A stretch of 22,387 bases of DNA from a virus: positions 1 through 22,387 of the IMG/VR virus record IMGVR_UViG_3300020205_001579, one strand, 5' to 3'. Numbering within the stretch: position 1 is the stretch's first letter; each line of letters starts with the position of its first letter. Of this stretch, positions 820 through 19,700 are shown piece after piece. The translations under genes were made by a program, and so were the position numbers. The notes beneath the pieces were generated by a model. That model was not told the origin of the DNA. It saw only the letters and a list, made by a program, of their open reading frames with translations, and ran no database searches.

Positions 820-2538
820 ATGGCTGGTTGGAAAAAGTATTTTACGCCGGTAAATGCATCGGGGAATTTGAGTCCTATCAGCGGGTCGACTAATAACAAC
901 TCACAAACTAGTCCAACTCATCGCAATTACTCTAGTTATCTTCCAGATGTTTATTCAGGTCATCCAAACCGTTTAGAACGTTATGGTCAATATGACACCA
1001 TGGATTCAGACAGTGAAGTCAATGCTGCATTAGACATTTTAGCAGAATTCTGTAGTCAAGCAAATGAAGAAAATGGCACTCCATTTAGAGTATTTTTTAA
1101 AGATCAAGCCACAAGTACTGAAATTAAAGTCATTAGAAAGTACATGCAACAGTGGACCAAACTAAACAAATTTCAAACTAGAATTTTTAAAATAGTTCGT
1201 AACAGTTTCAAATATGGTGATACTTTCTTTGTTAGAGATCCAGAAACACAGTCGTGGATGTACATAGATCCTAACAAAGTAGATCGTATTATTGTTAATG
1301 AATCAGAAGGAAAAAAGCCTGAACAATATATGATTCGAGACTTTAACCCTAACTTAGAAACATTAGCAACAACTGCAATTAATCCTAGTAATGTTACAGG
1401 TGGAGGTAGCCAATATGCTGGAGGCGGAACAAGCCCAGGGCAAGCAGGTGCTGGTGGCAGTAGGGGAATGACTGGATCATATCCTAGCAATATTACTGGT
1501 AGTAGATTTGGTAGACATGAAAATCAATATGCAATTGATGCTAAACATGTAATACATATTAGCATGAGTGAAGGATTAGATAATAATTTTCCTTTTGGTA
1601 CTAGTTTATTAGAAAGCATTTTTAAAGTATTCAAACAGAAAGAATTATTAGAAGATGCAATTCTAATATATCGTATTCAACGTGCTCCAGAACGTCGTGT
1701 ATTCTATATTGATGTAGGAAATATGCCAAGCCATTTGGCCATGGGATTCGTTGAGCGTGTTAAAAACGAAGTTAATCAACGCCGTATTCCTAGTGCAACG
1801 GGTGGAGGTCAAAGTGTAGTCGATGCTGGATATAATCCACTTAGCATCAATGAAGATTACTTTTTCCCACAAACAGCAGAGGGTAGAGGCAGTAAAGTTG
1901 AAGTATTGCCAGGTGGTACTAACCTAGGAGAAATTGATGATCTTAAGTATTTTACTAATAAGTTGTTTCGTGCTCTACGCATACCTAGCACTTATCTTCC
2001 TACCGGCTCTGACGATGGAGGAAGCAATTTTAATGATGGTAGAGTTGGAACAGCATACATACAGGAACTTAGATTTAACAAGTATTGTGAACGACTACAA
2101 AGCTTAATGAATGAACAGTTTGATACAGAATTTAAACTGTATCTGCATAATAAAGGCATCAACATAGACAGCAATTTATTTGAAGTTAAGTTTAATCCTC
2201 CACAGAATTTTGCCAGTTATCGTCAAGCAGAAATGGATACAGCCCGTGTTAATACATTTAATACTATGATTGCTATTCCACAAATCAGTAAACGATTTGC
2301 GTTAAAACGTTTCTTAGGGCTTACAGCAGAAGAAATGGCAGATAATGAAAAATTATGGCAAGAAGAAAATATAGATACAGATGCTACATTGCCTGCAAGT
2401 GCTGAACTTAGAAGTGTTGGAATTACTGCAAATGGTATAGGATCTGATATATCTGGATTAAATTCTGCAACAGAAGCACCACCGCCGGAAGATCCTAATG
2501 CAGCAGCGCCTGCTCCAGAAACTCCGCCAGCAGCATAA
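820..2538 (+). CDS. 20: Portal vertex protein (T4 gp20-like)
   Basis: This is the portal protein, which forms the dodecameric ring at the head vertex. It starts head assembly, docks the terminase and is the DNA channel. Recognisable gp20 signatures are YGQYDTMDSDSEVNAALDI (residues 55-73), the RAPERRVFYIDVGNMP block (from residue 288), and LGEIDDLKYFTNKLFRALRIP with STYLPTG just after it. At 572 aa it is somewhat longer than T4 gp20 (524 aa). The extra length includes a Gly/Ser-rich insertion at about residues 188-228 and a Pro/Ala-rich acidic C-terminus (APPPEDPNAAAPAPETPPAA). The start is supported by AAGGA at 806-810, nine bases upstream, which overlaps the previous stop codon. It is the first gene of the head cluster. 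Identity is secure. What the insertion does is unknown. Confidence 0.97.
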   Translation: MAGWKKYFTPVNASGNLSPISGSTNNNSQTSPTHRNYSSYLPDVYSGHPNRLERYGQYDTMDSDSEVNAALDILAEFCSQANEENGTPFRVFFKDQATSTEIKVIRKYMQQWTKLNKFQTRIFKIVRNSFKYGDTFFVRDPETQSWMYIDPNKVDRIIVNESEGKKPEQYMIRDFNPNLETLATTAINPSNVTGGGSQYAGGGTSPGQAGAGGSRGMTGSYPSNITGSRFGRHENQYAIDAKHVIHISMSEGLDNNFPFGTSLLESIFKVFKQKELLEDAILIYRIQRAPERRVFYIDVGNMPSHLAMGFVERVKNEVNQRRIPSATGGGQSVVDAGYNPLSINEDYFFPQTAEGRGSKVEVLPGGTNLGEIDDLKYFTNKLFRALRIPSTYLPTGSDDGGSNFNDGRVGTAYIQELRFNKYCERLQSLMNEQFDTEFKLYLHNKGINIDSNLFEVKFNPPQNFASYRQAEMDTARVNTFNTMIAIPQISKRFALKRFLGLTAEEMADNEKLWQEENIDTDATLPASAELRSVGITANGIGSDISGLNSATEAPPPEDPNAAAPAPETPPAA

Positions 2539-2541
2539 ATA
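2534..2541 (+). promoter_or_regulatory. Candidate late promoter CATAAATA
   Basis: CATAAATA matches the NATAAATA late-promoter element of T4-like cyanophages (T4 consensus TATAAATA). It overlaps the gp20 stop codon. With T4 late-promoter spacing, transcription would begin at about 2547, the A of the next start codon. Confidence 0.45.
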
Positions 2542-2546
2542 TTTGT

Positions 2547-2795
2547 ATGCTATTAAACGAATTCATTTATTTTGACGGTCAGCAAGCAAATCAAGTTGAC
2601 GACTTGAGATACAATTCTGACAATGATACCAGTATATTAAAATCAAAAGATTTACGTAAAACACGATTAACTTTACGTATGTTAAATGATCTTCGTAAAG
2701 CAGGTGATGCTAGAGAAGAAGAAAAGAAAAATGAGTTAGGTTTAGTAAGAAAAATGTATGCGGTTCCGCCTCCTGAGGCAGCACCTGTAGCATAA
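2547..2795 (+). CDS. Small conserved prohead-region protein (gp67/gp68 position)
   Basis: This 82-aa protein lies between portal and prohead core, where T4 has the small core proteins gp67 and gp68. The N-terminal half is polar and acidic. The centre is a basic helix with the sequence LRKTRLTLRMLNDLRKAGDA, followed by EEEKKNELGLVRKMY and a Pro/Ala-rich tail. A KTRLTL-type helix in a small gene next to gp20 is, from memory, common in T4-like phages, where it is usually annotated as hypothetical or prohead core. I cannot assign it to gp67 or gp68 by sequence alone. No Shine-Dalgarno sequence precedes the ATG; the eight bases between the gp20 stop and this start are AT-rich. Translation may therefore depend on coupling to gp20 or on a leaderless message (see the late-promoter motif at 2534). 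Confidence 0.6.
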   Translation: MLLNEFIYFDGQQANQVDDLRYNSDNDTSILKSKDLRKTRLTLRMLNDLRKAGDAREEEKKNELGLVRKMYAVPPPEAAPVA

Positions 2796-2807
2796 TTTTA
2801 TAAAATT
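2794..2807. other. 14-bp AT palindrome at the end of the 82-aa gene
   Basis: AATTTTATAAAATT is a perfect palindrome overlapping the TAA stop codon. It is the first of four inverted repeats in this gap. Because it is pure AT, it could arise by chance. Confidence 0.4.
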
Positions 2808-2812
2808 TAATG

Positions 2813-2829
2813 ATTTTTTATCAAAAAAT
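2813..2829 (+). other. A/T hairpin ATTTTTT-ATC-AAAAAAT
   Basis: The seven-base arms are perfectly complementary around a three-base loop. It lies between the AT palindrome and the GC-containing hairpin. It is unlikely to be stable alone and may be part of a compound termination or processing region. Confidence 0.35.
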
Positions 2830-2862
2830 GCCTCAAACGATCAATAATGGCTCGTTTTAGGC
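2830..2862 (+). terminator. Imperfect 11-bp hairpin, possible terminator or RNA-processing site
   Basis: GCCTCAAACGA (2830-2840) pairs with TCGTTTTAGGC (2852-2862) at ten of eleven positions, with a C/T mismatch, around an 11-base loop. There is no clean downstream T-run, so it is not a textbook intrinsic terminator. The position, after the 82-aa gene and before the core cluster, suits partial termination or mRNA end formation. Confidence 0.4.
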
Positions 2863-2886
2863 CTGTTTCCTATGCCTTTATGTAAA

Positions 2887-2904
2887 TGTGTTTAAATAAA
2901 CACA
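2887..2904. promoter_or_regulatory. Inverted repeat containing a late-promoter-like TTTAAATA
   Basis: TGTGTTTA and TAAACACA are perfect eight-base inverted arms separated by AA. The centre reads TTTAAATA (2891-2898), one mismatch from the T4 late element TATAAATA. It would place a transcript start near 2904, 45 bases before the prohead-core start codon. It could be a promoter, an operator-like palindrome, or both. Confidence 0.35.
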
Positions 2905-2948
2905 CAATACAGCCTTGCCGCGCAATCTAATTAAGGAGAATACACGCA

Positions 2949-3968
2949 ATGTCTACAAAGTTTGAACAACTATTAGATCTCATCGTTAACGAAGATAAGC
3001 AAAAAGCCGAAGAACTTTTTCATGCTATCGTTGTTGAGAAATCTAGAGAAATTTATGAAAATCTAATCGCTGAAGAAGAAGAAGAAAATACCGATATGGA
3101 AGAAGCAGAAGATCCCGATGAAGATCCTGTTGAAGAAGGTGCTGATGATGTAGAAGAATCTGATGATACCGATATGGACGAGTCCATGGACTTAGAAGAT
3201 TCTTACAGCATGGAAGCAGATGACGAAGAAGATCCAATGAGTGGTTCTGGTGATGCTACTGATGAATTTGGTAGTGACATTGGCGCCGACGACACAGATG
3301 GTGAAGAAAATCCAGAAGCACAAGAAGATAACGCAATCATGGACATCAAAACTGCTATTCAAGAACTTGAAGCAGCCTTTGCTGAACTAGAACAAGCCCA
3401 GGGCGGTGAAGCATCACATGGTGGTTTTGGTAGTGAAGAAGAGCCAAAAATGGGAATGGATGATGAAGATGAAGGTATGATGATGGGAAAGCCAGCATTT
3501 GAAGGTCGTCGTATCACACGTGAATATACAGAGAAAGTTGGTAACGACTGGGATAAATCTGGTAGCCAAAAGAGTCAAGGTCAGTACTTAGGTGCAGGCA
3601 CTGGTGAGAAAGATGGCTCTCCAGTTGAAGGACGTAGCCCAATTGCTTCTGGTAAAAACAAGCCAGGACCGGCAAATGTAAATGGTAGAAACTTGGTACA
3701 AGGTTCTACAGAAGGTCAAAGCAACACTGGTACAAGCCCTGGCAAAGTAAACAACGGTATTACAAAAACTGCCGGTGAAAAGTTTGCTAGCGGTATCCAC
3801 AACGTTGACGGTATGAAGTCTGGTGTTAAGACACTAGGTAAAGTTGCCAACGGTCATGGTGCTGAGAAGAAAGGTTCTGGTCCAGGCCCAGTAGGTTCCG
3901 GTACAGGCGACAAAGCTGGTCAAACCAGTGTTAGCCCTGTAAAGCAATTCTTGAAGCCAGCTAATTAA
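2949..3968 (+). CDS. Prohead core scaffold protein, acidic (gp67/gp68 type)
   Basis: This 339-aa protein is probably an internal prohead-core component that helps shape the capsid and is removed by the gp21 protease. The N-terminal helix (residues 1-40, FEQLLDLIVNEDKQKAEELF) resembles the start of T4 gp67/gp68-type core proteins. Residues 41-180 are extremely acidic (runs of Glu/Asp with Met). The C-terminal 140 residues switch to a Gly/Ser/Asn/Lys-rich, low-complexity, net-basic sequence. It is several times larger than T4 gp67 (80 aa) and more than twice gp68 (141 aa). A strong AAGGAG lies 10 bases upstream of the ATG. It is followed after 13 bases by gp21, in the T4 order of core protein, protease, scaffold, capsid. 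The assignment rests on position, the N-terminal helix and composition, not on a diagnostic motif. Confidence 0.7.
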   Translation: MSTKFEQLLDLIVNEDKQKAEELFHAIVVEKSREIYENLIAEEEEENTDMEEAEDPDEDPVEEGADDVEESDDTDMDESMDLEDSYSMEADDEEDPMSGSGDATDEFGSDIGADDTDGEENPEAQEDNAIMDIKTAIQELEAAFAELEQAQGGEASHGGFGSEEEPKMGMDDEDEGMMMGKPAFEGRRITREYTEKVGNDWDKSGSQKSQGQYLGAGTGEKDGSPVEGRSPIASGKNKPGPANVNGRNLVQGSTEGQSNTGTSPGKVNNGITKTAGEKFASGIHNVDGMKSGVKTLGKVANGHGAEKKGSGPGPVGSGTGDKAGQTSVSPVKQFLKPAN

Positions 3969-3972
3969 TTAG
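3961..3972. other. 12-bp palindrome across the core-protein stop codon
   Basis: CTAATTAATTAG is a perfect palindrome spanning the TAA stop just before gp21. It is short and AT-rich, so any role is uncertain. It lies where translation restarts for gp21, which has only a weak ribosome site. Confidence 0.3.
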
Positions 3973-3981
3973 AGCACTAGG

Positions 3982-4611
3982 ATGAAAGTATCTTATCTAA
4001 GAGAACACCTAAGTTTTGATCAGGCCGGCATCATGATGGAGTCGGATGACAAGGATGGCAAGAGCCTTTATTTAAAAGGTATTGCCATCCAAGGTGGTAT
4101 TCGCAATGCAAATCAACGAGTCTACCCTGTAGATGAAATTGAACGTGCTGTGAAAACACTAAATGATCAATTACAAAGTGGATACTCTGTGTTAGGTGAA
4201 GTAGACCATCCAGATGATCTAAAAGTAAATTTGGACCGTGTATCCCATATGATTACTCAAATGTGGATGGAAGGTCCTAATGGTTATGGCAAGATGAAGA
4301 TTTTGCCAACACCAATGGGTAACTTAATTCGTACTATGCTTGAAAGCGGAGTGAAACTAGGTGTCAGCAGTAGAGGCAGCGGCAACGTTGATGAAATGTC
4401 TGGCAAAGTATCCGATTTTGAGATTATCACAGTAGATGTAGTTGCACAACCTAGCGCACCTGGTGCATATCCTACTCCTGTTTATGAGCATCTCATGAAC
4501 ACAAGAGGTGGAAATCGTGCCTTTAGTGTTGCTAAAGAAGTAAAAGAAGATCCAAAGGCCCAAAAGTATCTTCAAGAGTCTCTCTTGAAGATTATTAAAG
4601 GTCTAAAATAA
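3982..4611 (+). CDS. 21: Prohead maturation protease (T4 gp21-like)
   Basis: This serine protease has the herpesvirus-assemblin-like fold. It is packaged in the prohead and cleaves the scaffold, the core proteins and the N-terminus of the capsid protein. Visible hallmarks are the N-terminal LYLKGIAIQGGIRNANQRVYP (residues 29-49), GEVDHP with the likely catalytic His76, and KLGVSSRGSG with the likely catalytic Ser at 129/130. The DFEIITVDVVAQPSAPGA block (145-162) carries acidic residues conserved in the family. At 209 aa it is about the length of T4 gp21. The chosen start gives the expected N-terminus, but its ribosome site is poor (AGG directly abutting the ATG; AGAG at 3971-3974), suggesting low expression or coupling to the upstream gene. 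The last codons contain a perfect hairpin (4568-4592). Confidence 0.96.
   Translation: MKVSYLREHLSFDQAGIMMESDDKDGKSLYLKGIAIQGGIRNANQRVYPVDEIERAVKTLNDQLQSGYSVLGEVDHPDDLKVNLDRVSHMITQMWMEGPNGYGKMKILPTPMGNLIRTMLESGVKLGVSSRGSGNVDEMSGKVSDFEIITVDVVAQPSAPGAYPTPVYEHLMNTRGGNRAFSVAKEVKEDPKAQKYLQESLLKIIKGLK
4568..4592 (+). other. Perfect 11-bp hairpin inside the 3' end of gp21
   Basis: ATCTTCAAGAG (4568-4578), a TCT loop, and CTCTTGAAGAT (4582-4592) form an 11-bp uninterrupted stem with a triloop. It lies 19 bases before the gp21 stop codon and 35 bases before the gp22 start. No T-run follows, so it is not an intrinsic terminator. It could be an mRNA processing or stabilising element separating protease from scaffold message. 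Confidence 0.6.
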
Positions 4612-5730: not shown

Positions 5731-6912
5731 ATGTCACAATTATTAAATGAAAGATGGTCAGAGACCAAAGAAGCTCTGCTTGAAGGCCTACAAGGTAACC
5801 GTCGTGCATCTATGGGCGTATGCCTAGAAAATACACGCCGTCATTTGGCTGAAAGCGCAACTGCTGGTGCAACATCCGCTGGAAACATTGCTACACTAAA
5901 CCGTGTAATTCTTCCAGTTATTCGTCGTGTTATGCCTACAGTTATTGCCAACGAAATCATCGGCGTTCAGCCAATGACTGGTCCAGTTGGTCAAATCCAC
6001 ACTCTACGTGTTCGCTACGCTGATGGCGTTGCTTCCGGTGATACAGTGTATGCAGGTGAAGAGGCCCTAAGCCCATTCAAGATTGCAGCCGCTTATTCTG
6101 GTAACAACAGTGCTACAGCAGGTGCCCAAACAACATCTGTTCTTGAAGGTTCACCAGGCAAGCGTATGAGCATCCAAATCTTGAAGACTCCAGTTGAAGC
6201 TAAGTCACGTAAACTAAGCGCACGTTGGACATTTGAGGCTGCTCAAGATGCACAAGCCCAACAAGGTATTGACATCGAAGCAGAAATCATGGCTGCTCTA
6301 GCACAAGAAATTACTGCTGAAATTGACCAAGAAATTCTAGCAAGTCTACGTCGTTTAGCAACTATCGAAGAAACATATGACCAGTCATTAGTTTCAGGTA
6401 CTGCTACATTCGTAGGTGACGAGCACGCTGCTCTTGCTATCCAAATCAACCGTGTAAGCAATTTGATTGCTCAACGTACACGTCGTGGTTCTGGTAACTG
6501 GGCTGTTGTTTCTAACCAAGCATTGACAATTCTACAATCTGCTACTACAAGCGCATTTGCTCGTACAACAGAAGGTACATTTGAAGCACCTACAAACACT
6601 AAGTTTGTTGGTACATTGAATGGCGCAATGAGAATTTATGTTGACGCATACAAGAGTGATACAGACGATGACAACCAAGTTCTTATCGGATACAAAGGTA
6701 CTAGCGAAGCAGATGCTGCTGCGTTCTATTGCCCATACATTCCTCTAATGAGTTCTGGTGTTGTTCTAGATCCAGCAACTTTTGAGCCAGTAGTTGGCTT
6801 CTTGACACGCTACGGCTATGTTGAGTTGAACAATACTGCGTCTTCTCTAGGTAACGCTGCCGACTATCTAGGTCGTGTATCTATTACAAACGCAACTGTA
6901 AGCTTCAAGTAA
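5731..6912 (+). CDS. 23: Major capsid protein (T4 gp23-like)
   Basis: This is the main shell protein (HK97 fold). Diagnostic T4-type sequence is RVMPTVIANEIIGVQPMTGP followed by VGQIHTLRVRYADG (residues 67-100), then the KSRKLSARWTFEAAQDAQAQ block with GIDIEAEIMAALAQEITAEID just after it, and the C-terminal TRYGYVELNN. It is 393 aa, clearly shorter than T4 gp23 (521 aa). A gp21-type cleavage site (Leu/Ile-x-Glu) occurs at LAE-S, residues 39-42, so the mature protein would begin at Ser42 and be 352 aa. LLE-G at 16-19 is a second match. A strong AAGGAG is placed 8 bases upstream. Codon use is richer in C/G-ending codons than in the tail-fibre genes, as expected for the most abundant virion protein. 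An intrinsic terminator follows directly. No gp24-type vertex paralogue is seen in the window. Confidence 0.98.
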   Translation: MSQLLNERWSETKEALLEGLQGNRRASMGVCLENTRRHLAESATAGATSAGNIATLNRVILPVIRRVMPTVIANEIIGVQPMTGPVGQIHTLRVRYADGVASGDTVYAGEEALSPFKIAAAYSGNNSATAGAQTTSVLEGSPGKRMSIQILKTPVEAKSRKLSARWTFEAAQDAQAQQGIDIEAEIMAALAQEITAEIDQEILASLRRLATIEETYDQSLVSGTATFVGDEHAALAIQINRVSNLIAQRTRRGSGNWAVVSNQALTILQSATTSAFARTTEGTFEAPTNTKFVGTLNGAMRIYVDAYKSDTDDDNQVLIGYKGTSEADAAAFYCPYIPLMSSGVVLDPATFEPVVGFLTRYGYVELNNTASSLGNAADYLGRVSITNATVSFK

Positions 6913-7063: not shown

Positions 7064-7807
7064 ATGGGACGTCCAATTAAAAAGACATTTTTTGGTAATT
7101 TAATTACCCCCTATCAGAATCAAGCAACTGGTGGCAGAACTGGTGTAGGTAATGAAGGTATTGCATCTATTGGTGTTGCTAATACATTAACAAATGCAGG
7201 TTATAGTACTAGTACAGCAGTTACATGGACAGCAAGTGCTCCATCAACAGCAGGTGGTCGTCCAGCAACTGGTACTGCTACTGTTTTATATGTAGCAGGA
7301 TTAGCTGATGCAGGTATGGCACAGCCGGGTCGTATTACCGCATTGCAAGTTACTGATTCTGGTTCAGGCTATACTTCAACAGGTTCTGTGACTTTAACTT
7401 TTAGTCCAGCAAAAGTAGCAGGTACAGCAACTACTATTAGTACAGTATTAACAACTGGTCGTCCAAATGCTATTGCTTTCACTTCATATCTAACTACAGG
7501 AAGTAGTGCAATTGATTCTGGCGATATTCTTAAACAAGAAGGTAGCCGTCGTTATTTGGTTCAAAATGCTCAAGGTCAAGGAATCTGCAAATTAGTTAAT
7601 ACTACTACATTAGCCGCTGGCGAAATGTCTATTATTGCAACAGACTGGAATGGTAGCACATACACTGTTAATAAATTAACTGCTCATAAAGCACTTGTTT
7701 ATCAAAGTACTGTATCTACAGCATTCTTAGTTGGTAATGGTGTGGCTACAGGTTGGACATTAGGTGCTGCAACAGGAACAGTGGTTAGTCTTGCTCAAAC
7801 AATATAA
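7064..7807 (+). CDS. Virion structural protein with its own promoter and terminator
   Basis: A 247-aa Thr/Ser/Gly/Ala-rich, almost cysteine-free protein. It starts MGRPIKKTFFGNL, a beginning that I recall in structural proteins of marine T4-like phages. The middle has ITALQVTDSGSGYTSTG (about residues 102-118), a Gly-Tyr beta-turn motif frequent in virion beta-sandwich repeats. The second half (KQEGSRRYLVQNAQGQGICK, then TDWNGSTYTVNKLTAHKALV) also looks all-beta. There is no signal peptide or membrane segment. It is flanked by terminators on both sides, with a late-promoter motif and structured leader upstream and the strongest type of ribosome site, so it should be an independently and highly expressed late gene. 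That profile would fit a head decoration or other high-copy surface protein, but this is inference and no specific family is recognised. Confidence 0.7.
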   Translation: MGRPIKKTFFGNLITPYQNQATGGRTGVGNEGIASIGVANTLTNAGYSTSTAVTWTASAPSTAGGRPATGTATVLYVAGLADAGMAQPGRITALQVTDSGSGYTSTGSVTLTFSPAKVAGTATTISTVLTTGRPNAIAFTSYLTTGSSAIDSGDILKQEGSRRYLVQNAQGQGICKLVNTTTLAAGEMSIIATDWNGSTYTVNKLTAHKALVYQSTVSTAFLVGNGVATGWTLGAATGTVVSLAQTI

Positions 7808-7821
7808 TCAATACTATGTAT

Positions 7822-7855
7822 AAAAATAAGGGGGCTTGTCTCCCTTATTTTTTTT
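7822..7855 (+). terminator. Intrinsic terminator after the 247-aa gene
   Basis: AAAAATAAGGG (7822-7832) pairs perfectly with CCCTTATTTTT (7842-7852) around a nine-base loop. The Ts continue to 7855. It begins 15 bases after the stop codon. Confidence 0.92.
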
Positions 7856-7871
7856 ATAGGTAAATAATGGT

Positions 7872-8396
7872 ATGACCACTAATTGGACCTTGCCTACCTC
7901 TGTAACTCAATATGCTGAACCTGAAACTGAAGATAATCACGTATCATGGTTAGATATTGATAATTTTCATAGAATTAGAAATCTTGATGGTAAACCAATA
8001 AAAACATCAAGAGATTTGTTACATATTGCTAGACAACCTAATCACGATTTTGTTGAAAAAACTTATTACATAAAATCTACTGGATTTAATTTTCAAAATT
8101 TACCAGATACTGTTTCTGGTGTTGAAATGAGATTATCTATAAAAAGACATGGTAGAATTTCTGACGAAACTATACAACTATGTTTAGATGATGAATTGAT
8201 TGGTGATAACCAAGCATCAAACAGTTTAGATCCTACCACTCTTTATGGTGGAGAAAACGATATATGGAATGCACAATTATCAATTCCAAAATTACAAAAT
8301 TCATCATTTGGAATAGTAATACGATTTAAAAGTCATCCACATTGGCCACATAAAACTGGTGCTGCGTTGGCTGGAGTTGAGATAAGAATACATTAA
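7872..8396 (+). CDS. T4-like phage virion structural protein (beta-sandwich type)
   Basis: A 174-aa protein that begins with a short Thr-rich segment and a DNHVSWLDIDNFHRIRNLDG region. A likely beta-sandwich domain (about residues 65-174) follows, with NLPDTVSGVEMRLSIKRHGR, then DETIQLCLDDELIGDNQAS and LYGGENDIW. It ends with FGIVIRFKSHPHWPHKTGAA and VEIRIH. From memory, this pattern of GRIxDxTIQL, IGxNxA and a terminal HPxWPH-VEIRIH recurs in structural genes next to fibre genes of cyanophage-like myoviruses; no biochemical role is known to me. The ribosome site is weak (TAGG, 11 bases upstream). An overlapping out-of-frame ATG at 7867 has no supporting frame. It opens the tail-fibre cassette and lies 27 bases before the giant beta-helix gene, which has its own promoter motif. 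Confidence 0.75.
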   Translation: MTTNWTLPTSVTQYAEPETEDNHVSWLDIDNFHRIRNLDGKPIKTSRDLLHIARQPNHDFVEKTYYIKSTGFNFQNLPDTVSGVEMRLSIKRHGRISDETIQLCLDDELIGDNQASNSLDPTTLYGGENDIWNAQLSIPKLQNSSFGIVIRFKSHPHWPHKTGAALAGVEIRIH

Positions 8397-8398
8397 CA

Positions 8399-8406
8399 AA
8401 TAAATA
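8399..8406 (+). promoter_or_regulatory. Late promoter AATAAATA
   Basis: This NATAAATA match lies in the 27-base gap before the 1840-aa gene. The predicted transcript start is about 8412, leaving a 12-base leader that just includes the ribosome site (GAGGA, 8412-8416). Confidence 0.55.
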
Positions 8407-8423
8407 CATCTGAGGATCAGAGA

Positions 8424-11400
8424 ATGACAACTAACGTATTAAATTTACCAGGCGATTATAAAATTGTAGTAAACGGAGCCAACGGGCTTGTTACCGTCGC
8501 CGGTGATACACAATTAGGATTAAATGCTACAAACACTATCGATGTTAAGGCCAATTTTATAAGCAGTTTAGTTCCACAAACATCATCTACTTATAATTTA
8601 GGTACAGCAACTAATTCTTGGAATATTGCTTATATACAACAAGAAAGAATACTTGATTTAACCAATGTTGAAAATCGTTACGGACGTCCGTACGATCCAC
8701 TCAACATGTATGATACTCCTGAGCATAGAAATACTGCGTCCTTATATGTATCTGGTGGTGTTGGTATTGAAAAAGATTTAAACGTTGGTGGTTTTATATA
8801 TGGTAGAATTGAAACTGCTAATACATCGTTATCTATTCTTACCACTGTTACTAATGTAGATTTAGATTTCTTTCCTACATTTGTTCTAGGAAGTTCAACA
8901 CAACAAATAGTATTTGTTGATTCCGACGGAGTTACTGGCGGTTTAAGATACAATCCATTCTATGGAAAATTAAAAACTGATAGAGCATTAATAGCAGAAA
9001 CTGAACAATCAGTAAGTACACAAACAGGTGCATTGGTAGTACAAGGTGGTGTTGGTATTGCTAGTACAATGACTATTGGCGGGGATATATTGCCGGCTGA
9101 AGATTTAAAAGGACACATTGGTAATACATCTACTCAATGGGCCGAAGCATATGTACATGATATATATACTAGATTAATTACATCTACTACAGGTACTATT
9201 GAAGTTAAGCCATATGACGGGTTAACTGATATATTTGGAGACATAAGAGTACGAGGAGTTAATCCACTCGGTACTGCTCCAATGGTAACCAACACACTCC
9301 ATGTAACAGTTGATGGCGATGATACAAATGATGGCCGCGCCATGGATGCTAGTAGAGCATGCCGAACAATTGGAGGTGCCATTAATAGTCCTTACTATCA
9401 ACCAGGTACACAAATTTTAGTCAGTGCTGGATTTTATTTAGAAGACAATCCTCTTAGATTAAAACCATATACTAGTGTTCGTGGTAGTGATATCCGTACA
9501 ACTTTTATTGAACCTATTAACAAAACACAAGACTTGTTTCATTTAGAAAGCGGATGTTATCTTAACTACATGACTTTCTTAAATGGAAGAAGTGGATTAC
9601 TTGAAGGACAATATGCACTTGGTTATAACAGAGGTGCCTATGCTACAGCATTTCCTCCTCAGACAGGTGATAACCGTATAGATTTATTCCATTCACCATA
9701 TGTACAAAACTGTACTAATCAAAGTGGACCATGGTTAAAAGATGGTACTATGTTTGTACCTAGTCAAACTGTTCAAGTACCGGCGGCTGTTGGAACAGGA
9801 ACATGGATAGCAAATACAACTACAATTGTTGTAAAAGTTAATACAGGCACTATCACCCAAGGTATGTCTATTAATGCTGGAGCACAAAATCCAGGATTCT
9901 TTAGCGCTCGTACATTACTATTGGCCAATAAACCATTTTTACAAGAACAGGTTGTTAACTACATTAACCAACAGATATTAACTAATACTGGTATATGGAA
10001 CAATTTTACCTATAATCAAGAAAAATGCCGTCGAGATGTTGGAATTTTGGTTGAAAATATTGCATATGATGCAGCATTTGGTGGAAATGAGAAAGCCGTT
10101 GAAAGCGGACTGTCATATTGGAAAGGTGTCGTTAGTGTAATTGCAGGTCAAGAAACACAGACAACAGATGCAATTGAATATTTACGTGATAGAATGTTAG
10201 AAGTAATAACTAATACTCCATGTACAAATACAACTCCTGGCGGAATTTATTCTCAAGTTATTAATATTGTATTACTCGATGGGGATGTTTCAAACGATTC
10301 TATTACAAAATTAGTTGGTACAATAACAAATATTATAAATTATGGACCAGATGTTGCTCCACCTGTTTATAAGAATACTGGACCCGATGCGGCATTTGTA
10401 AGTGCTGAAATATTAATGCAGGCTAACAGAAAATTTATTCAAGAAGATACTGTTAACTATATTAATAGTGTTATATATGATACGGGCACTGGAGGATTTC
10501 CTTATAGCGAAATTAAATGTCGTAGAGATACAGGATTAATTGTTGATTCTATTACATACGATTTATTGTACGATGGAATTACACAATCTAATTTTACTGG
10601 AATACAATATTGGAATCAAAGTGGATACACTGGTACTATAGAAAGTGAATTGTTACCTACTATCAATGCCATTAAATATTTAAAAGATTTATCTGTTAAA
10701 ATTATAAAGAATGTCACATATAGTGATGATTTAGTTTATAGATTTGGCGGTACAGATCAAACTATATCATTAGAATCTGCTACTAATGCCGAAGCGGATA
10801 TAATTAATCCATTGTTCAATATAATAATTAATATTATTAACGGAACTAATAAATTCTGGACTGATAGTATTATTCCTAATGGATCACCAAGCGATCTTCT
10901 TGGTGTTCAGAATGCTTTTGCATTGTTGCAATTCAATAAAAATTATATGGCCGACGAAGTAAATTCGTATATACGAGCAGCCACAAGCATTACAAATGGT
11001 GCATTTACTGGCCTTAATTTTACAGCATACGACGAAACTAAATGTAAACGTGATGTAAGACACATTATTGATTGCATATGCTTTGATTTATTAAATGGTG
11101 GTAATCGTCAAAGTATACAAGCAGGTGTATTGTATCTTGGATTTTCAGATGAAAATGGATCAAGTATTGCAGGACAAATTGTACAAACAACTGCTGCTTT
11201 TAATTATCTATCTACAATTGCACAACAAATTATACAAAATATTCCTGTAACAACAACAAAACAAAGAAGAGTAAAACAAAACTTATCTTTGGATACACCT
11301 ACCATTGCTCCAACTTCATCGTTAAATGATAAAGTAATTATAATTAATGACATCATTGATGACATAAACAATAAAGATCCAGATCCTACTCCAATATCAT

Positions 11401-13946
11401 TGACAATAACTACTGACGACGATATTATTAAAGCATGTACTATATTAAAGGCCAACAGACAATTTATTGTTGAAGAAGTAATTGCTTTCATAGATGAAAC
11501 TTACAATGCCGGTAGATTTAATTATGACGAAGCATCGTGCTATAGAGATACAGGATTAATTGTAGATGCAGTTAGTCAAGATATTTTATTAGGTGGAAAT
11601 CAAAAATCAGTAGAGGCTGGATTAGCATATTGGAATTTTGGATTTAACCATGTTGCCGGACAAGAAACTACTACCACCATGGCTCTTAATTATGCTAGAG
11701 ATATAGCATTACAAATTATTGCAAATCAACCAGTAACACCACAGTCTCAAACAAGTATACCTCAAGTAATTAACACTTTCTTCCAGTACGGCGGAGACTA
11801 CATGCCACAAGAAGCAGTGTCACGTAATTTTGGAATTATCACCGACATTATTGAAAGAGGTCCACAATATGCTCCGCCTATTTACGCAGGTGGAGGTTTG
11901 TTCTCATTAACTGGATTAAATGGTGCTGATGTAAAAATATCACCAACTGTATCTAGTATACAAGAAATTGATACAAATCAATATCGCATTGGACTAAGCG
12001 CACCCACTATTGGATTTGGAACTAATTCTACTTTATATTTTGGAGACATTTTAATATTTCCATTGAAAGATTCACAAGTAGAAGCCAAGAGTTTGGAATA
12101 TACCGGCAGAGCCAGTACATGGAATGCTCGTAAAGTAGATTCAATTGGAAGTATGGGCGGAAGTTTAGTTGACGGCGCCGTTATATCTGCCCGTAGTCCT
12201 ATACAGTCTTTTGTGTATGATGCATTTACTCAAGTTAATCAAGGCGGTAGAGGTATACATATTACCAATGATGGATATGCACAGTTAGTTTCTGTGTTTA
12301 CAATTTTCTGTTCAGTTGGGGTACAAACAGATAATGGCGGTATTGCAAGTATTGTTAACAGTAATGCCAACTTTGGCGATATATGTTTACTATCAACAGG
12401 TTATGGAACACGAAAATTTAGTGGAACTGTTTACAATCCAAGATTTAAAGCATATCCCGAAAGTCCAGGTATAGACGGGTTTGATCAATATTATCCCGAC
12501 GGATTCTGGCCAAACAACGCTAGAATGGAAGTATTCATACCCGATATAGATGATCGTCCACATATTAGTTTGGTAATGGAAATTATTCCTCCTGAAAAAA
12601 CATATGATCCAAATTTGTTAAAATATGTTGATCAAGTTAACGAGCAAGGATTTCCAGGCTTTTTAAATGCTGCTCCTAATACAGGAACACTAACCACTAG
12701 TACTATTGTTTTAACTGGTATAGATACAACCGGTATTGCTATTGGAAATTACTTATACATTAGAGATCAGGATAATAGTTTAGTAGGCTCCAATGGAAAT
12801 CCATATGCTGCTACTGGCACACAAGTTACAGCAATAGGATATCAAAGTGTTACATTGAATCTTGCGTTGACTAGTGGAGGATCTGATCCTATAAACACCG
12901 GCGAACTTTATAATAATAATTATTTTAGTTTATATTTCTGCGGTAACTCTTATTATACCGTACTAAGTAGTGAGATAGCAACTCCACCTAGTAATATACC
13001 AGTGGGATCTAATATATTATCTACTGCCAATACTAATGTTACTGTTGATCAAGTAGATGTACATATAGCGTCTTTAGAAAAATTAAGATTATTGATTCAC
13101 GACGTTGTTCAAAATAATAGTGTGACTCCATTATTCCAAACTACTGCAACTCAATATATAGATGTAATGGTGCAAAATGGACAGTATGCTATATCATTTA
13201 TAGATTTGCGCTTTGGTGAGATTGAGCAAATTATTAAACCTTCTACGGCTACCCCACCGCAGGCAAATACAGCAGCCGGCGCCGAATTAGTAATTAAACC
13301 TGCATTGAGAACTAAAACTGGTCCTACTGTACAAGGTGCCGGAGATGCTATTACATTGATTAAAAAGAATATAGGTTTCTTGACCAGTGAAGTCAGTGCT
13401 TATATTCAAGCACCAGTGGGAGTAGGTGGCGGACTTGGATTTACTACTTACGATGACTATAAATGTCGACGTGATTTTGGAATAATTTTACAAAGATTAA
13501 TATATGATATAGAAACCGGTGGAAGATATAATTCTGTTTTAACTGGATTGAGTTATTGGGCAAGAGCAGGTACACATCATATTATACAACTTGGAGAAAA
13601 CATTACCAGAACTGATTTATTCCCAGATGGCGCTACAGTTAATTTCTATCAAAGAAGTTATATTAGTGCTAGCGGTTATGTGTTTGAATATGTAGGTGCC
13701 GGTACCAATTACGGAGCATTACCACAACGAGGTGTTGCTGATCCTGTACAAGGAAAAGAAGTTGTTCAACTTGATAGTGGTAAAGTATTCTTTACCTCAT
13801 CTGATCAAAATGGTGATTTCCGCATTGGCCCGGGATTAGTTATTAGTCAGGCAACCGGTGTTCTAAGTGGTAGAACATTTACTAAATCTTTATTTGCTAA
13901 TATGACTCCGTTCATACTTGCAATTGAAGGTGGCGGAATGGTATAA
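8424..13946 (+). CDS. Giant beta-helix tail-fibre/adhesin protein with five internal KCxRD repeats
   Basis: An 1840-aa virion protein, probably part of the tail-fibre or baseplate-associated host-recognition structure. Visible regions in order: a fibre-shaft motif STYNLGTATNSWNIAYI (about residues 54-72); two GGVGIG modules (about 107-135 and 195-220); and a beta-helix that opens with TVDGDDTNDGRAMDASRACR (about 295-315) and continues to about 440. Four helical repeats are then centred on KCRRD-like motifs (Cys535, 699, 874, 1039). A second beta-helix spans about 1240-1370 (SFVYDAFTQVNQGGRGIHIT, then GYAQLVSVF). A fifth repeat carries Cys1681. The conserved-looking C-terminus (about 1786-1835) contains VFFTSSDQNGDFRIGPG and SLFANMTPFILAIEGG. 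The same beta-helix and C-terminal motifs occur, as I recall, in large structural proteins of cyanophages. The order of domains is seen; the adhesin role is inferred from position and fold. Confidence 0.85.
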   Translation: MTTNVLNLPGDYKIVVNGANGLVTVAGDTQLGLNATNTIDVKANFISSLVPQTSSTYNLGTATNSWNIAYIQQERILDLTNVENRYGRPYDPLNMYDTPEHRNTASLYVSGGVGIEKDLNVGGFIYGRIETANTSLSILTTVTNVDLDFFPTFVLGSSTQQIVFVDSDGVTGGLRYNPFYGKLKTDRALIAETEQSVSTQTGALVVQGGVGIASTMTIGGDILPAEDLKGHIGNTSTQWAEAYVHDIYTRLITSTTGTIEVKPYDGLTDIFGDIRVRGVNPLGTAPMVTNTLHVTVDGDDTNDGRAMDASRACRTIGGAINSPYYQPGTQILVSAGFYLEDNPLRLKPYTSVRGSDIRTTFIEPINKTQDLFHLESGCYLNYMTFLNGRSGLLEGQYALGYNRGAYATAFPPQTGDNRIDLFHSPYVQNCTNQSGPWLKDGTMFVPSQTVQVPAAVGTGTWIANTTTIVVKVNTGTITQGMSINAGAQNPGFFSARTLLLANKPFLQEQVVNYINQQILTNTGIWNNFTYNQEKCRRDVGILVENIAYDAAFGGNEKAVESGLSYWKGVVSVIAGQETQTTDAIEYLRDRMLEVITNTPCTNTTPGGIYSQVINIVLLDGDVSNDSITKLVGTITNIINYGPDVAPPVYKNTGPDAAFVSAEILMQANRKFIQEDTVNYINSVIYDTGTGGFPYSEIKCRRDTGLIVDSITYDLLYDGITQSNFTGIQYWNQSGYTGTIESELLPTINAIKYLKDLSVKIIKNVTYSDDLVYRFGGTDQTISLESATNAEADIINPLFNIIINIINGTNKFWTDSIIPNGSPSDLLGVQNAFALLQFNKNYMADEVNSYIRAATSITNGAFTGLNFTAYDETKCKRDVRHIIDCICFDLLNGGNRQSIQAGVLYLGFSDENGSSIAGQIVQTTAAFNYLSTIAQQIIQNIPVTTTKQRRVKQNLSLDTPTIAPTSSLNDKVIIINDIIDDINNKDPDPTPISLTITTDDDIIKACTILKANRQFIVEEVIAFIDETYNAGRFNYDEASCYRDTGLIVDAVSQDILLGGNQKSVEAGLAYWNFGFNHVAGQETTTTMALNYARDIALQIIANQPVTPQSQTSIPQVINTFFQYGGDYMPQEAVSRNFGIITDIIERGPQYAPPIYAGGGLFSLTGLNGADVKISPTVSSIQEIDTNQYRIGLSAPTIGFGTNSTLYFGDILIFPLKDSQVEAKSLEYTGRASTWNARKVDSIGSMGGSLVDGAVISARSPIQSFVYDAFTQVNQGGRGIHITNDGYAQLVSVFTIFCSVGVQTDNGGIASIVNSNANFGDICLLSTGYGTRKFSGTVYNPRFKAYPESPGIDGFDQYYPDGFWPNNARMEVFIPDIDDRPHISLVMEIIPPEKTYDPNLLKYVDQVNEQGFPGFLNAAPNTGTLTTSTIVLTGIDTTGIAIGNYLYIRDQDNSLVGSNGNPYAATGTQVTAIGYQSVTLNLALTSGGSDPINTGELYNNNYFSLYFCGNSYYTVLSSEIATPPSNIPVGSNILSTANTNVTVDQVDVHIASLEKLRLLIHDVVQNNSVTPLFQTTATQYIDVMVQNGQYAISFIDLRFGEIEQIIKPSTATPPQANTAAGAELVIKPALRTKTGPTVQGAGDAITLIKKNIGFLTSEVSAYIQAPVGVGGGLGFTTYDDYKCRRDFGIILQRLIYDIETGGRYNSVLTGLSYWARAGTHHIIQLGENITRTDLFPDGATVNFYQRSYISASGYVFEYVGAGTNYGALPQRGVADPVQGKEVVQLDSGKVFFTSSDQNGDFRIGPGLVISQATGVLSGRTFTKSLFANMTPFILAIEGGGMV
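9906..10214 (+). repeat. KCxRD domain copy 1 (residues 495-597)
   Basis: It contains LLLANKPFLQEQVVNYI, then EKCRRDVGILVENIAYD with Cys535, GGNEKAVESGLSYW, and a closing helix ending RDRMLEVITN. It is best matched by copy 4, including the shared AGQETxTT segment. Confidence 0.85.
10404..10712 (+). repeat. KCxRD domain copy 2 (residues 661-763)
   Basis: It contains ILMQANRKFIQEDTVNYIN, IKCRRDTGLIVDSITYD with Cys699, and GIQYW. The GGN motif is replaced by DGI and the following loop is diverged. It has the same length as copy 1 (103 residues). Confidence 0.85.
10914..11240 (+). repeat. KCxRD domain copy 3 (residues 831-939)
   Basis: It contains ALLQFNKNYMADEVNSYI, TKCKRDVRHIIDCICFD with Cys874, GGNRQSIQAGVLYL, and a closing helix ending AQQIIQN. 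It is slightly longer than the others because of extra residues around the linker before the Cys motif and in the loop. Confidence 0.85.
11433..11726 (+). repeat. KCxRD domain copy 4 (residues 1004-1101)
   Basis: It contains ILKANRQFIVEEVIAFID, ASCYRDTGLIVDAVSQD with Cys1039, and GGNQKSVEAGLAYW followed by AGQETTTTMALNYARDIALQ. The Lys before Cys is Ser and the usual Tyr-Asp is Gln-Asp. Confidence 0.85.
13347..13583 (+). repeat. KCxRD domain copy 5, short (residues 1642-1720)
   Basis: It contains LIKKNIGFLTSEVSAYIQ, YKCRRDFGIILQRLIYD with Cys1681, and GGRYNSVLTGLSYW. The closing helix is missing. It is separated from copy 4 by the second beta-helix, about 640 residues away. Confidence 0.8.
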
Positions 13947-14401: not shown

Positions 14402-15790
14402 ATGTCTAGTTTACTAAGTGCATCAAAATTACGATCTGGCGGCAGTGGAGAATTTCTTCCGCTTGAAGGCGCTATGCCTCAACTGCCTGAAACAACCAGC
14501 ACTACTGGTTTTACTTTGATCACAAATCAGTTATTACAAACCAGATATGCTTCTAGTCTTGGTAATATTGAATTTGACAAAGCAAATATGTACAGCAATC
14601 TCAGTGAAGGTGCTGTACGTATATTAATGACTGGTACTACATCTATTTCAACCAGTACTGCATCTGGTACATTAGTAGTTACAGGCGGAGTTGGTATTGG
14701 TAAAAACTTATGGGTTAAACAAGATATACATGTTAACGATTTAACTATTGGACAAGGAATTGATAACGGAAATAACATTACTTTTGTTGGAACTTATACA
14801 GAAATAATACCAGCCGATGGACAAAATACTATTTCAATTGGTTATAATGCTCTTACAAAATCAATTAAAGCATATAAAAGTATAGCAATTGGAAATAACG
14901 CTTTAGGGCAAGGTATAGGAATTACAAATTCTATAGCAATTGGTGACGGAGCACTTTCAAATTTAGGAACTATTGCAGAATCTGTAGTGGCTACTATTAG
15001 CAATGCAGCTCAACTTAATCCAGTAATAATTACAACATATGCGTCACATGGTTTAATAACAGGTGATAGAGTATTAATTACTGATGTTACAGGAATGATT
15101 GAATTAAATGAAAATAATTATTATGTTGAAGTTACAGATTCAGTAACATTTAAACTGTATAGTGATTTAATTTTAAATAGTCCTATTAACGGAACTGGAT
15201 ATACTGCATACGTATCAGACGGAACTATTAATAGATATGTATTAAGCAATAACAATATAGGAATTGGAGTTGATTCGGGGAAAAATTTAGTTGAAGGAAG
15301 AAAAAATTTCTTCTTTGGAGACCGTGTTGCTGAGAATATGACCACCGGCTCAGCCAATGTTCTTATTGGGTCAGATGTTGCAAGAAATATGATTACAGGA
15401 AGTGGAAATATTTCTATTAGCGGCGACAATTTAGTCGACGGTGTTGATAATCAAATTAATATAGGTAGCGTATTTTACTATAATGGTAGCGGTGATTTAA
15501 ATATACTTTCTAACACAGATGTAGGACTTGGAACAGAATCAACATCAACTTCTTCAGGATCATTAATTGTATCTGGGGGAATTGGTACACAATATAGTGT
15601 CTATAGCAGAGAAGGTAATCCAGACGAAAATTATCTATTGTACACACCAAGAGTTTTTGTAAGTGCTACACAACCAACTGGTCCTAGAATAGCAGATTTT
15701 TGGATATATAATGATGGTGACGCATCATCGTATCTTCAATATGTAAGAGATGGAACTGACACATTCTGGTTACAGGTTGGACTAATTTAA
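14402..15790 (+). CDS. Tail-fibre-like structural protein with YadA-head-like and FCCH-like parts
   Basis: A 462-aa protein. The N-terminus (about residues 18-75: FLPLEGAMPQLPETTSTTGF, then LGNIEFDKANMYSNL) looks like an attachment region. One GGVGIG module is at 88-112 and a partial one is near 385-400 (SGSLIVSGGIG). Between them are short repeats of the SIAIGNNAL/SIAIGDGAL kind (143-186) and IGIGVDSGKNL/VLIGSDVARNM (284-335), like the left-handed head of YadA-type adhesins. Residues about 195-280 (TTYASHGLITGDRVLITDVT, then NENNYYVEVTDSVTFKLYS) match the beta-barrel fold named after the E1 FCCH domain that is found in phage structural proteins. The C-terminus (PTGPRIADFWIYNDGDASSY, then WLQVGLI) is a separate small domain. 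The gene starts 11 bases after the previous stop, with a weak AGAG ribosome site. Confidence 0.78.
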   Translation: MSSLLSASKLRSGGSGEFLPLEGAMPQLPETTSTTGFTLITNQLLQTRYASSLGNIEFDKANMYSNLSEGAVRILMTGTTSISTSTASGTLVVTGGVGIGKNLWVKQDIHVNDLTIGQGIDNGNNITFVGTYTEIIPADGQNTISIGYNALTKSIKAYKSIAIGNNALGQGIGITNSIAIGDGALSNLGTIAESVVATISNAAQLNPVIITTYASHGLITGDRVLITDVTGMIELNENNYYVEVTDSVTFKLYSDLILNSPINGTGYTAYVSDGTINRYVLSNNNIGIGVDSGKNLVEGRKNFFFGDRVAENMTTGSANVLIGSDVARNMITGSGNISISGDNLVDGVDNQINIGSVFYYNGSGDLNILSNTDVGLGTESTSTSSGSLIVSGGIGTQYSVYSREGNPDENYLLYTPRVFVSATQPTGPRIADFWIYNDGDASSYLQYVRDGTDTFWLQVGLI

Positions 15791-16723: not shown

Positions 16724-19700
16724 ATGGCGATAGCAATCACAGAAGATTTCGTAACCAAAAGTGGTTTGATTGTACAAGGTACGGGCACGGTTACAAGTTC
16801 TACAGGACAGACTCAGGCTTTACAGGCTAATAGTGGTGCTGCAATCGCAAAAAATTTAATTGTAGGAACTAGTGCTGCAATTGGATCAAGTTTATCTGTA
16901 CAAACTACTGCATCTATTGGTGCATCACTTGCAGTCGGAACGTCACTCGGAGTTGGAACTGATGTAACAATTGGAAGAGATCTTTCAGTTACACGTGGTA
17001 CAAGATTAGTCACTGTAACTGCAACTGGTATAGTTTCAATTACTAATGCAACTGCTGCTACCACTGCAAGTATTGGAGCGTTAGTAGTAACCGGTGGTAT
17101 ATATTCTAACAATTTAGTTATTGGTAGCACATCTGCTAATACTGGTACTTCTCTTGACAATGCATTGTATGTAGCAGGTGGAATAGGTATTGGTAAATCA
17201 TTAGTAGTAGATGGTTCTGCGCTATTCAAAGGTGATGTAGTTTTTGTTGGCTCGTCTACTTATGTCTATAGTGTTAACTCATTATATACTGATAATTTAT
17301 TAGAAATACATGTACCGCCATCTAATACTGGAACATGGGCAATTGATGATGGAAAAGATATTGGATTACGTTTCCACTATTATTCAGGTAGCGATAAAAA
17401 TGCCGCGTTGGTATTATCAAGCGATTCGAGATATTTAGAATGGTACGAAACTGGCACAGAAAATGGATCAGGAGATTTTGTAAGCGGTACATATGGTACT
17501 TTTAAAACTGGTGCTATTAAATTAGTTGGTACAACCACTAGCACAAATACACAAACTGGTGATTTAACCGTTGTTGGTGGTGTTGGTATTGGTGGTGATT
17601 TAAATGTTGGAAATACAGTAACCGCACCATTATTTGTCGGCGATCTTACAGGTATTGCTACAACAGCAACAAATATTCAAGGTGGTGCAACTGGAGAGAT
17701 AGTATATCAAAGTACTGCAGGAGTTACTACGTTCCTTGCAGTTGATACAGATGGATATATTTTAAAACTTGACGGCGGCTTACCTACATGGGCTCCTTTA
17801 TCAACCGCAGTTGTTGATTATGCAAATACTGCTACTAACTTAAAGTACGGGTCAGATATGACAATTCCTTATCAAATAGGAATTGGACAAACCGAATTCA
17901 GTGATAATTTAAAATATGATTATGGCAATAGTAGATTACTTACTGTTAATGCTACGTTTACAGGAACTACTGGTGCATCAAGTACAGATTCTGGAACATT
18001 GCAAGTAGTAGGTGGCGTTGGCATTGGTGAGAATGTATGGATTGGTGGCAATGGAACTATATTTGGCGATCTTGAAGTTCGCGGTGGAGATATCACTACT
18101 GATCAAACAACATTTAATTTATTAAATGCCAATGCCACCACTGTTAATTTTGCAGGTGATGCAACAGCAATTACAGTAGGTTCAGATTCTGGTTATACAA
18201 CTATTAGAACACAAGTTACTGTTACAAATATTACTACTGCAACAAGTACATTAACAGGAGCACTAACAGTAGCAGGTGGAGTTGGAGTTGGTGGCAATTT
18301 GTATGTAGGTGGAACAACTACTGTATACGGAAATATATTGCCTGCAATTTCTGGAATTTCTTTAGGTTCTGCAGATATTCCGTTTGCTGATTTATTTTTA
18401 GGCGGTAATAGTTTATATATTGGAAACATTACAATCTCTGCCAGTGGATCGGGATTATCAATCGTAAGTTCAGGAGCCCCTGTAAATTTAAATGCTGCAT
18501 TTATAAATGCTACAACATCAACAGATGCATCTAGTACCAATACAGGTGCATTACAAGTAATAGGTGGGGTTGGTATTGGTAAAAATTTATGGGTAGGTGG
18601 TAACGAAACTATACTAGGTGACTTAGAAGTCCGCGGCGGCGATATTGCTACCAATCAAACAACATTTAATTTATTAAATGCTAATGCCACCACTGTTAAT
18701 TTTGCAGGTGCAGCAACTGCTATAAATGTTGGAGCCGGTTTAGGATACATTAATCTTAATAATAGAACTACTATAACCAATACAGCAACATCTATAGGAA
18801 CTGATACAGGTGCATTGGTAGTAGCAGGTGGTGCTGGAATTGCTGAGAATTTGTGGGTTGGTGGCAATGAAACTATATTAGGTGACTTAGAAGTCCGCGG
18901 TGGAGATATCACTACTGATCAAACAACATTTAATTTATTAAATGCCAATGCTACCACTGTTAATTTTGCAGGTGCAGCAACAGAAATTACAATTGGTTCT
19001 ACTGTTGGTTATACAATCATTAGAAATATTACCACATTAACTAATAATACGGCAGCAACTAGTACTACTACAGGTGCTTTACGTGTTGTAGGCGGTGTTG
19101 GAATTGGTGGTGCATTATATATTGGAACTTCTAGTTATATTAATGATTCTCTCATCTTAACTCGAGACAATATAGGTGCATTTGGTGTAACTAAGATAAT
19201 AGCCAGTACTGATACAGCAGTTAGTGCTGCAACCGGTGAAGTAACAATATGGAATACCAGTACATTACAAACAATAACCAATAGAGGTAATTCTACCAAT
19301 AATCAAATAGAATTTACCAATAGTACTATTGCTAGTTCAACAAATACAGGAGCAGTAACAGTTGTAGGTGGTGTTGGTGTTGGAAGAACTTTATGGGTAG
19401 GTAGTACCGCAACAATATCAAGTACAGCAATTTCTACATCAACCACTACCGGCGCATTGCAAGTATTTGGTGGTGTTGGTATTGGTGGTGATATGTATAT
19501 CAAAGGTACGATATATGGAGTTGCTACTACTGCTACTAATTTACGACAAGGTACTGTAGGACAAATACCTTTTCAAACTAATACAGGAACTACTGGGTTC
19601 TTTGGTCCAGGTACTAACGGGCAACTGCTAGTTAGTGCAGGTACTTCAACATCTGGACATCTTTTTGTAAGTACATCTAATTTTGTAATAGGATATTCTA

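Follow-up and report, generated by a model that had tools for sequence, protein, structure and literature searches.

The fibre protein and its repeated domain

The window analysed here, i.e. the whole stretch of 22,387 nucleotides, encodes on its plus strand a major capsid protein and, further downstream, a large fibre protein in which five related units were found. In a tblastn search the fibre protein matched 242 phage records, all of them cyanophage, marine or uncultured viral records. The features are listed below, with the score of each copy against a profile built from the domain itself (own profile) and the score of the copy alone against the Pfam family Phycobilisome (PF00502).

5731..6912, plus strand: major capsid protein, which places the window phage in an uncultured jumbo-phage clade
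8424..13946, plus strand: tail-fibre/virion structural protein, 1840 amino acids, five domains (PHROG tail-fibre families, 3.8e-75 and weaker)
9903..10235, plus strand: phycobiliprotein-like copy 1, CRRD, Cys535 at nt 10026 (own profile 128 bits; PF00502 16.3 bits)
10401..10727, plus strand: phycobiliprotein-like copy 2, CRRD, Cys699 at nt 10518 (own profile 122 bits; PF00502 12.0 bits)
10908..11282, plus strand: phycobiliprotein-like copy 3, CKRD, Cys874 at nt 11043 (own profile 121 bits; PF00502 no match)
11430..11771, plus strand: phycobiliprotein-like copy 4, CYRD, Cys1039 at nt 11538 (own profile 138 bits; PF00502 13.5 bits, across profile positions 31–141)
13344..13634, plus strand: phycobiliprotein-like copy 5, CRRD, Cys1681 at nt 13464 (own profile 81 bits; PF00502 no match)

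The five copies that an earlier note had reported from inspection of this DNA are present, with the cysteines at the residues it gave and C-x-R-D occurring five times and nowhere else in the protein. Alignment of the five units left 13 invariant columns, with 35–43% identity to copy 1, and a profile trained on relatives recovered the window copies at i-E-values of 2e-41 to 9.6e-24, far beyond chance. Copies 1–4 lie in tandem at spacings of 164, 175 and 165 residues, approximately one phycobiliprotein length (162 residues), while copy 5, which is shorter and more diverged than the others, follows 642 residues further on. The helical core extends over some 110–125 residues, slightly more than the previously estimated ~100, and the proposed signature around KCxRD, YD and GGN is recognizable but looser than described: copy 2 lacks the GGN, copy 3 has R in place of G, and copy 4 has SC and lacks the Tyr. 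The description of a helical repeated domain set within a beta-rich fibre agrees with the model of copy 1, which is helical apart from short strands.

The motif T-G-A-L-x-V-x-G-G-V-G-I-G recurs in the domain-bearing and the downstream fibre genes of the window (8724–8772, 9015–9063, 14654–14702, 15560–15587 and 18527–19106) and, in the open reading frame at 16724–22387, forms a 264-nt tandem array.

Phage affiliation and distribution of the domain

The capsid protein of the window shares 87–94% identity with its counterparts in most domain-bearing IMG/VR contigs, 70% with those in Sinorhizobium phage Phosso and Vibrio phage 2.275, and only ~37% with those in cyanophages. This grouping with jumbo phages rules out a T4-like cyanophage as the source of the window. 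Within the jumbo clade that bears the domain, contigs reach 331 kb and carry up to 23 domain matches each. The domain is absent from the heterotroph-infecting jumbo relatives Phosso, Vibrio 2.275, PA5oct, 121Q and XaC1, and also from Pelagibacter phage Mosig.

Searched against 50,697 phage records, the domain consensus matched 288, comprising Synechococcus phages, Prochlorococcus phages, records labelled ‘Cyanophage’ and one marine single-cell virus. As the earlier note had suggested, there are similar sequences in marine phages, both the fibre and the domain finding their matches in cyanophage and marine viral records. Host markers were scarce in the jumbo clade: psbA was found in 0 of 44, cpeT in 0 of 50 and a bilin reductase in 1 of 50, with no NblA gene found, and a Pfam scan of 125 proteins from a 328-kb jumbo contig pointed to no clear host. 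This clade may infect cyanobacteria, because the rest of the fibre also matches only cyanophage and marine viral records.

In several cyanophages (records including DSL-LC03 and P-HM2) the domain occurs not only in short tail fibre proteins but also in a protein annotated as gp7 or baseplate wedge initiator. A DNA-pattern search of genome contigs returned nine stretches, all in contigs of marine or aquatic metagenome-assembled genomes, among them Rhodobacteraceae Water_Bin34, Flavobacteriales TMED113 and Euryarchaeota TMED129. These contigs are probably misbinned phage, and the DNA-pattern search therefore yielded no cellular homologue.

Sequence similarity to phycobiliproteins

PF00502 was the sole Pfam family to match the whole window protein above its cut-off (1.6e-7; 31.8 bits against a cut-off of 22.2). 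The threshold was passed only by the sum of the copies, the best stretch of the match being copy 1 with its 16.3 bits; a single copy from Synechococcus phage S-PM2 came closer, at 22.0 bits. Among NCBIfam models only that of phycoerythrin alpha matched the window protein (0.0082, far below the model cut-off), and phmmer with the whole window protein against the PDB gave no match. Since single window copies score weakly against PF00502, the relation to phycobiliproteins was tested in several ways.

Window copies and the S-PM2 domain clearly belong to the same family on sequence comparison, copy 4 being 32% identical to the latter (E = 1e-14) and profile–profile alignment by hhalign giving a probability of 99.95%. 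Across the wider family, PF00502 matched 11 of 119 jumbo-clade units at E ≤ 0.01, every other Pfam family matching once, and 16 of 79 mostly cyanophage units (best 3.4e-6), where it was the sole family to match more than one member. Searched against the PDB, the profile of the 119 jumbo-clade units placed phycocyanin on top (0.0031), while that of the 79 units gave 115 matches, the best 60 of which were all phycobiliproteins (top 2.3e-5). With one S-PM2 fibre domain alone as the phmmer query, the first 23 PDB matches were all alpha chains of phycoerythrin or phycocyanin (best 9.6e-4). In the reverse direction, a profile made from 19 phycobiliproteins scored whole fibre open reading frames down to 4.7e-19, and 590 of 830 real units exceeded 5 bits with the phycobiliprotein HMM against 2 of 830 shuffled ones. 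The hhalign comparison of the two families reached a score of 41.3 (probability 91%); 60 column shuffles gave no more than 19.2, and the reversed profile gave 12. The matches start at about residue 29–39 of phycobiliproteins, take in helix B, the KYPYL loop and helix E, and continue past the latter.

It is almost certain, on these grounds, that the window domains are related to phycobiliproteins. The earlier note had asked whether a profile search would reveal a known, named domain with an assigned function; the units do belong with PF00502, but no virion function is described for it in the searchable literature. The full-text literature, with preprints and most subscription papers lying outside it, likewise held no report of phycobiliprotein-like domains in phage structural proteins. 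The superfamily is known; what is new is this variant of it and its location in the virion fibre. The name ‘phycobiliprotein’ would be unsuited to the domain, because it lacks the terminal parts and two invariant residues, and the pigment is putative.

Predicted structures

A model of an S-PM2 copy built without templates (pLDDT 75) retrieved phycobiliproteins as all of its best 50 Foldseek matches, with probabilities of 0.97–1.00 and E-values of at least 0.019. In VIA its best 50 matches were all phycobiliproteins, with Z ~12–13 across 110–124 residues. The predicted structure shows a phycobiliprotein (globin-type) fold for the cyanophage copies.

The model of copy 1 from the window was helical, with a higher mean pLDDT (92.6), but Foldseek gave no significant match and no phycobiliprotein in its list, and the best VIA match was a weak one to a globin (Z 4.3, 90 residues, 3.0 Å). 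The query was a tandem piece that took in the start of the next repeat, and the mismatch reflects either structural drift of the jumbo-phage copies or a poor query; it is not counted as evidence of a different fold. As the copy 1 model had no phycobiliprotein match, the fold of the window copies was therefore approached through homology, by which they probably share that of phycobiliproteins.

Conservation of the putative bilin helix

In phycobiliproteins the bilin is attached to and held in place by Cys84, Arg86 and Asp87, whereas Arg93 and Tyr97 take part in the packing of subunits; all five residues of helix E were invariant in the 19 phycobiliproteins compared. The KCxRD of the fibre domains corresponds to Cys84-x-Arg86-Asp87, present in all five window copies, and CxRD is the bilin-anchor motif of phycobiliproteins (PMC10151467). 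Arg93 and Tyr97 have been lost from the fibre domains, Arg93 being replaced by Asp or Glu.

Cys84, Arg86 and Asp87 were kept in 98%, 99% and 99%, respectively, of 640 distinct jumbo-clade copies, a sample fetched by a pattern that itself contained C-x-RD, although one match per locus was enough for this and most of the 768 copies came in through the profile. The corresponding values for 345 distinct cyanophage-type copies were 99%, 82% and 100%, the remainder being mostly C-x-D-D. Among isolates (eight records examined by profile, seven with the domain) Cys was present in 91% of 47 copies and absent from four, while the Asp was found in all. Besides this helix the phage family conserves Asn9, Asp49, Asn55 and Tyr65 (domain numbering), and no Cys or His other than that of CxRD.

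Cys-x-Arg-Asp had been judged strict enough to be functional, and its conservation across ~1,000 copies (Cys 98–99%, Asp 99–100%) is in keeping with this view; the roles then suggested, a metal site, an inter-chain contact or a receptor pocket, give way to a bilin-anchor motif, which homology to PF00502 makes the better reading. C-x-D-D takes the place of C-x-R-D in ~17% of cyanophage-type copies, which perhaps form a subclass with different ligand chemistry.

Bilin-related genes in domain-bearing phages

In S-PM2, Syn1 and ACG-2014h only a few genes separate cpeT from the giant domain-bearing fibre gene downstream of it. All 15 informative S-PM2-type IMG/VR loci (fibre gene start and at least 5 kb upstream visible) have cpeT upstream of that gene, at a distance of 251–2152 bp; a few of these loci are near-identical and all were fetched by similarity to the S-PM2 copy, so that the pattern represents conserved synteny of one orthologous gene. 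Identity of CpeT to that of S-PM2 falls to ~39% across these loci. Of the 25 isolate records appearing in both the domain and the cpeT lists, many of them close relatives, 23 had cpeT 1.7–6.6 kb upstream on the same strand. The S-PM2 record (AJ630128) places 16 annotated tRNAs within the giant fibre gene (7437–12264 of the retrieved stretch), where ARAGORN finds none; the real tRNA genes lie around cpeT (2263–4183 of the same stretch), and the deposited tRNA coordinates look shifted.

Of the records searched, 3 of 58 had a bilin reductase and 3 of 20 a heme oxygenase; the domain-less P-SSM2 is among those with such genes, and where found they did not adjoin the fibre gene. P-HM2 combines six matches to the domain with genes for a heme oxygenase, a bilin reductase and a short CpeT, although these do not lie side by side. 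P-SSM2 and Pelagibacter phage Mosig have heme oxygenase and bilin reductase genes without the domain. Jumbo contig G018 (328 kb, ~20 copies) carries overlapping heme oxygenase and bilin reductase genes at ~163.5–164.7 kb, and this reductase is nearest (41%) to that of Mosig, i.e. PcyX-like. The host may supply the bilins, and additional functions are possible for the phage bilin genes. The CpeT of P-HM1, the sole phage CpeT known to have been characterized, reportedly bound phycoerythrobilin without transferring it to host phycoerythrin, behaviour that would fit a different acceptor.

Possible functions of the domain

The five units are best explained as truncated, diverged phycobiliprotein-type (bilin-binding globin-like) domains in a virion fibre, four of them in tandem. 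The part kept corresponds approximately to phycobiliprotein residues 38–138, with the N-terminal helices and the C-terminal end absent, and in phycobiliproteins these residues form the pocket of the Cys84 bilin. We lean, if only slightly, towards domains that carry a covalent bilin in the virion, the attachment of the bilin, its chemistry and its role being inferred. In the infected cell a linear tetrapyrrole would then be attached covalently to each conserved Cys84; its propionate and pyrrole nitrogens would be held by Arg86 and Asp87, and each fibre chain of the mature particle would bear several chromophores. Loading could be spontaneous, as in the bilin biosynthesis-associated globins (BBAGs), or aided by a CpeT-type lyase, and is plausible because BBAGs with CXRD load without a lyase and the engineered protein smURFP binds bilin. 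Candidate roles for the pigment are light-gated adsorption, energy quenching or photoprotection, and bilin-based stabilization of the fibre. Several observations speak against a bound bilin: the copy 1 model has no phycobiliprotein match and no single window copy passes the PF00502 cut-off; bilin genes are rare in the jumbo clade, while P-SSM2 and Mosig have such genes and lack the domain; and four of the 47 isolate copies are without the Cys and 17% have C-x-D-D, and the terminal phycobiliprotein parts are absent.

Alternatively, the fold could derive from phycobiliproteins but have been recycled as a scaffold from which bilin binding is gone, a helical spacer or adhesion module in which Cys, Arg and Asp serve packing and folding. 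We regard this as possible, though not probable. Asn9, Asp38, Asn55 and Tyr65 of the domain are conserved like the Cys, the Asp persists in copies that have lost the Cys, hardly any jumbo-clade contig carries bilin genes or cpeT, and fibres act outside the cell, where bilins are not expected; the failure of the copy 1 model to resemble phycobiliproteins in structure searches points the same way. It is difficult, however, to reconcile mere packing with a set of retained invariants that is exactly the bilin-contact triad while Arg93 and Tyr97 were lost, or with a lone Cys kept at 98–99%, which is costly without a job. The tie of cpeT to the fibre gene and, among isolates, the restriction of the domain to phages of bilin-making hosts also argue against such a scaffold. 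A metal site or an inter-chain contact, as first proposed, or a disulphide, is very unlikely. One strictly kept Cys adjoining Arg and Asp would suit it, and trimeric fibres bring three domain copies together, but with one Cys in each domain a three-fold axis brings together an odd number that cannot all pair, the domain has no other conserved Cys or His, and the motif is already explained by homology. Least credible of all is convergence, i.e. a chance likeness of the CxRD helix in domains unrelated to phycobiliproteins. The 12–16 bits of single window copies against PF00502 and the copy 1 model without a fold match would allow it; against it, the similarity is not confined to that helix but also covers helix B and the KYPYL loop and continues past helix E, the best 60 of 115 matches in the family-profile PDB search were only phycobiliproteins, and the fold match reached Z ~12–13. 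Shuffled controls, both profile–profile and HMM, and the PDB searches strongly disfavour it.

A special case of the bilin-carrying fibre would have the pigment gate adsorption by responding to light or passing on energy, a reading that we consider unlikely. Light-dependent adsorption of cyanophages has been described since 1979. Some cyanophages need light to adsorb (PMC5082946; PMC2984593), and P-HM2 hardly adsorbs in the dark while P-SSP7 adsorbs equally in light and dark (PMC7112961). The domain matched six times in P-HM2, six times in P-HM1 and thirteen times in S-PM2, but not in P-SSP7. This comparison involves two or three phages and proves nothing, being confounded because the phages differ in family (myoviruses versus podoviruses). 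The light effect could, moreover, lie in the host, and the BBAGs tested so far are photoinactive (PMC10151467), which counts against light sensing. It is improbable that virions are pigmented through fibres loaded during infection with bilins from phage or host, often with a neighbouring CpeT, and that their adsorption responds to light; if true, such virions would give the phage bilin genes a purpose and also account for light-dependent adsorption. The domain is a first molecular candidate for the latter.

Comparison with known bilin-binding systems

The closest known proteins are the alpha and beta subunits of phycobiliproteins (PF00502; phycocyanin, phycoerythrin, allophycocyanin), the globin-like bilin carriers of the light-harvesting antennae of cyanobacteria, which share with the fibre domains helix B, the B–E loop (KYPYL in S-PM2 copies), the bilin helix K-C84-x-R86-D87, the helices that follow and the fold of the cyanophage copy. 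They differ in possessing ~35 N-terminal residues, which form helices, and a C-terminal end, both missing in the fibre domains. The latter, in turn, have lost Arg93 and Tyr97, show a new invariant Asp at 98 and the GGN, and are repeated up to ~20 times inside giant fibre proteins, with a putative bilin. A similar truncation is seen in smURFP, a small fluorescent protein engineered from allophycocyanin alpha that is likewise without the N-terminal part (its PDB chains match allophycocyanin from residue 35) and still takes up a bilin.

The BBAGs (Rockwell et al. 2023; PMC10151467) are paralogs of phycobiliproteins with no part in light harvesting; two of them, BBAG-1 and BBAG-3, have the CXRD motif and need no lyase to bind bilins. 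They are small stand-alone proteins encoded beside bilin reductase genes, whereas the units described here are domains of a virion fibre; heme oxygenase and bilin reductase genes, with which those of BBAGs are encoded, did not adjoin the fibre gene in the records where they were found.

Among the phage bilin genes, those for CpeT (PF06206; T-type phycobilin lyase family) and HemO, PebS, PcyA and PcyX encode enzymes or chaperones, not bilin carriers, cpeT being the one that adjoins the fibre gene; in the literature searched we found no link of these products to virion proteins. Why phages carry genes that make or handle bilins is debated (PMC11480375); phages with phycobilin genes include those of Prochlorococcus, which has no phycobilisomes, and of heterotrophs, in which light harvesting is unlikely (PMC2984593, PMC11480375). 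The fibre domain provides a concrete candidate acceptor for phage phycobilins, a virion protein that has the appropriate attachment motif and whose gene is often a neighbour of cpeT, and its retention of the bilin-anchoring residues suggests that virus particles themselves may carry light-absorbing pigments.
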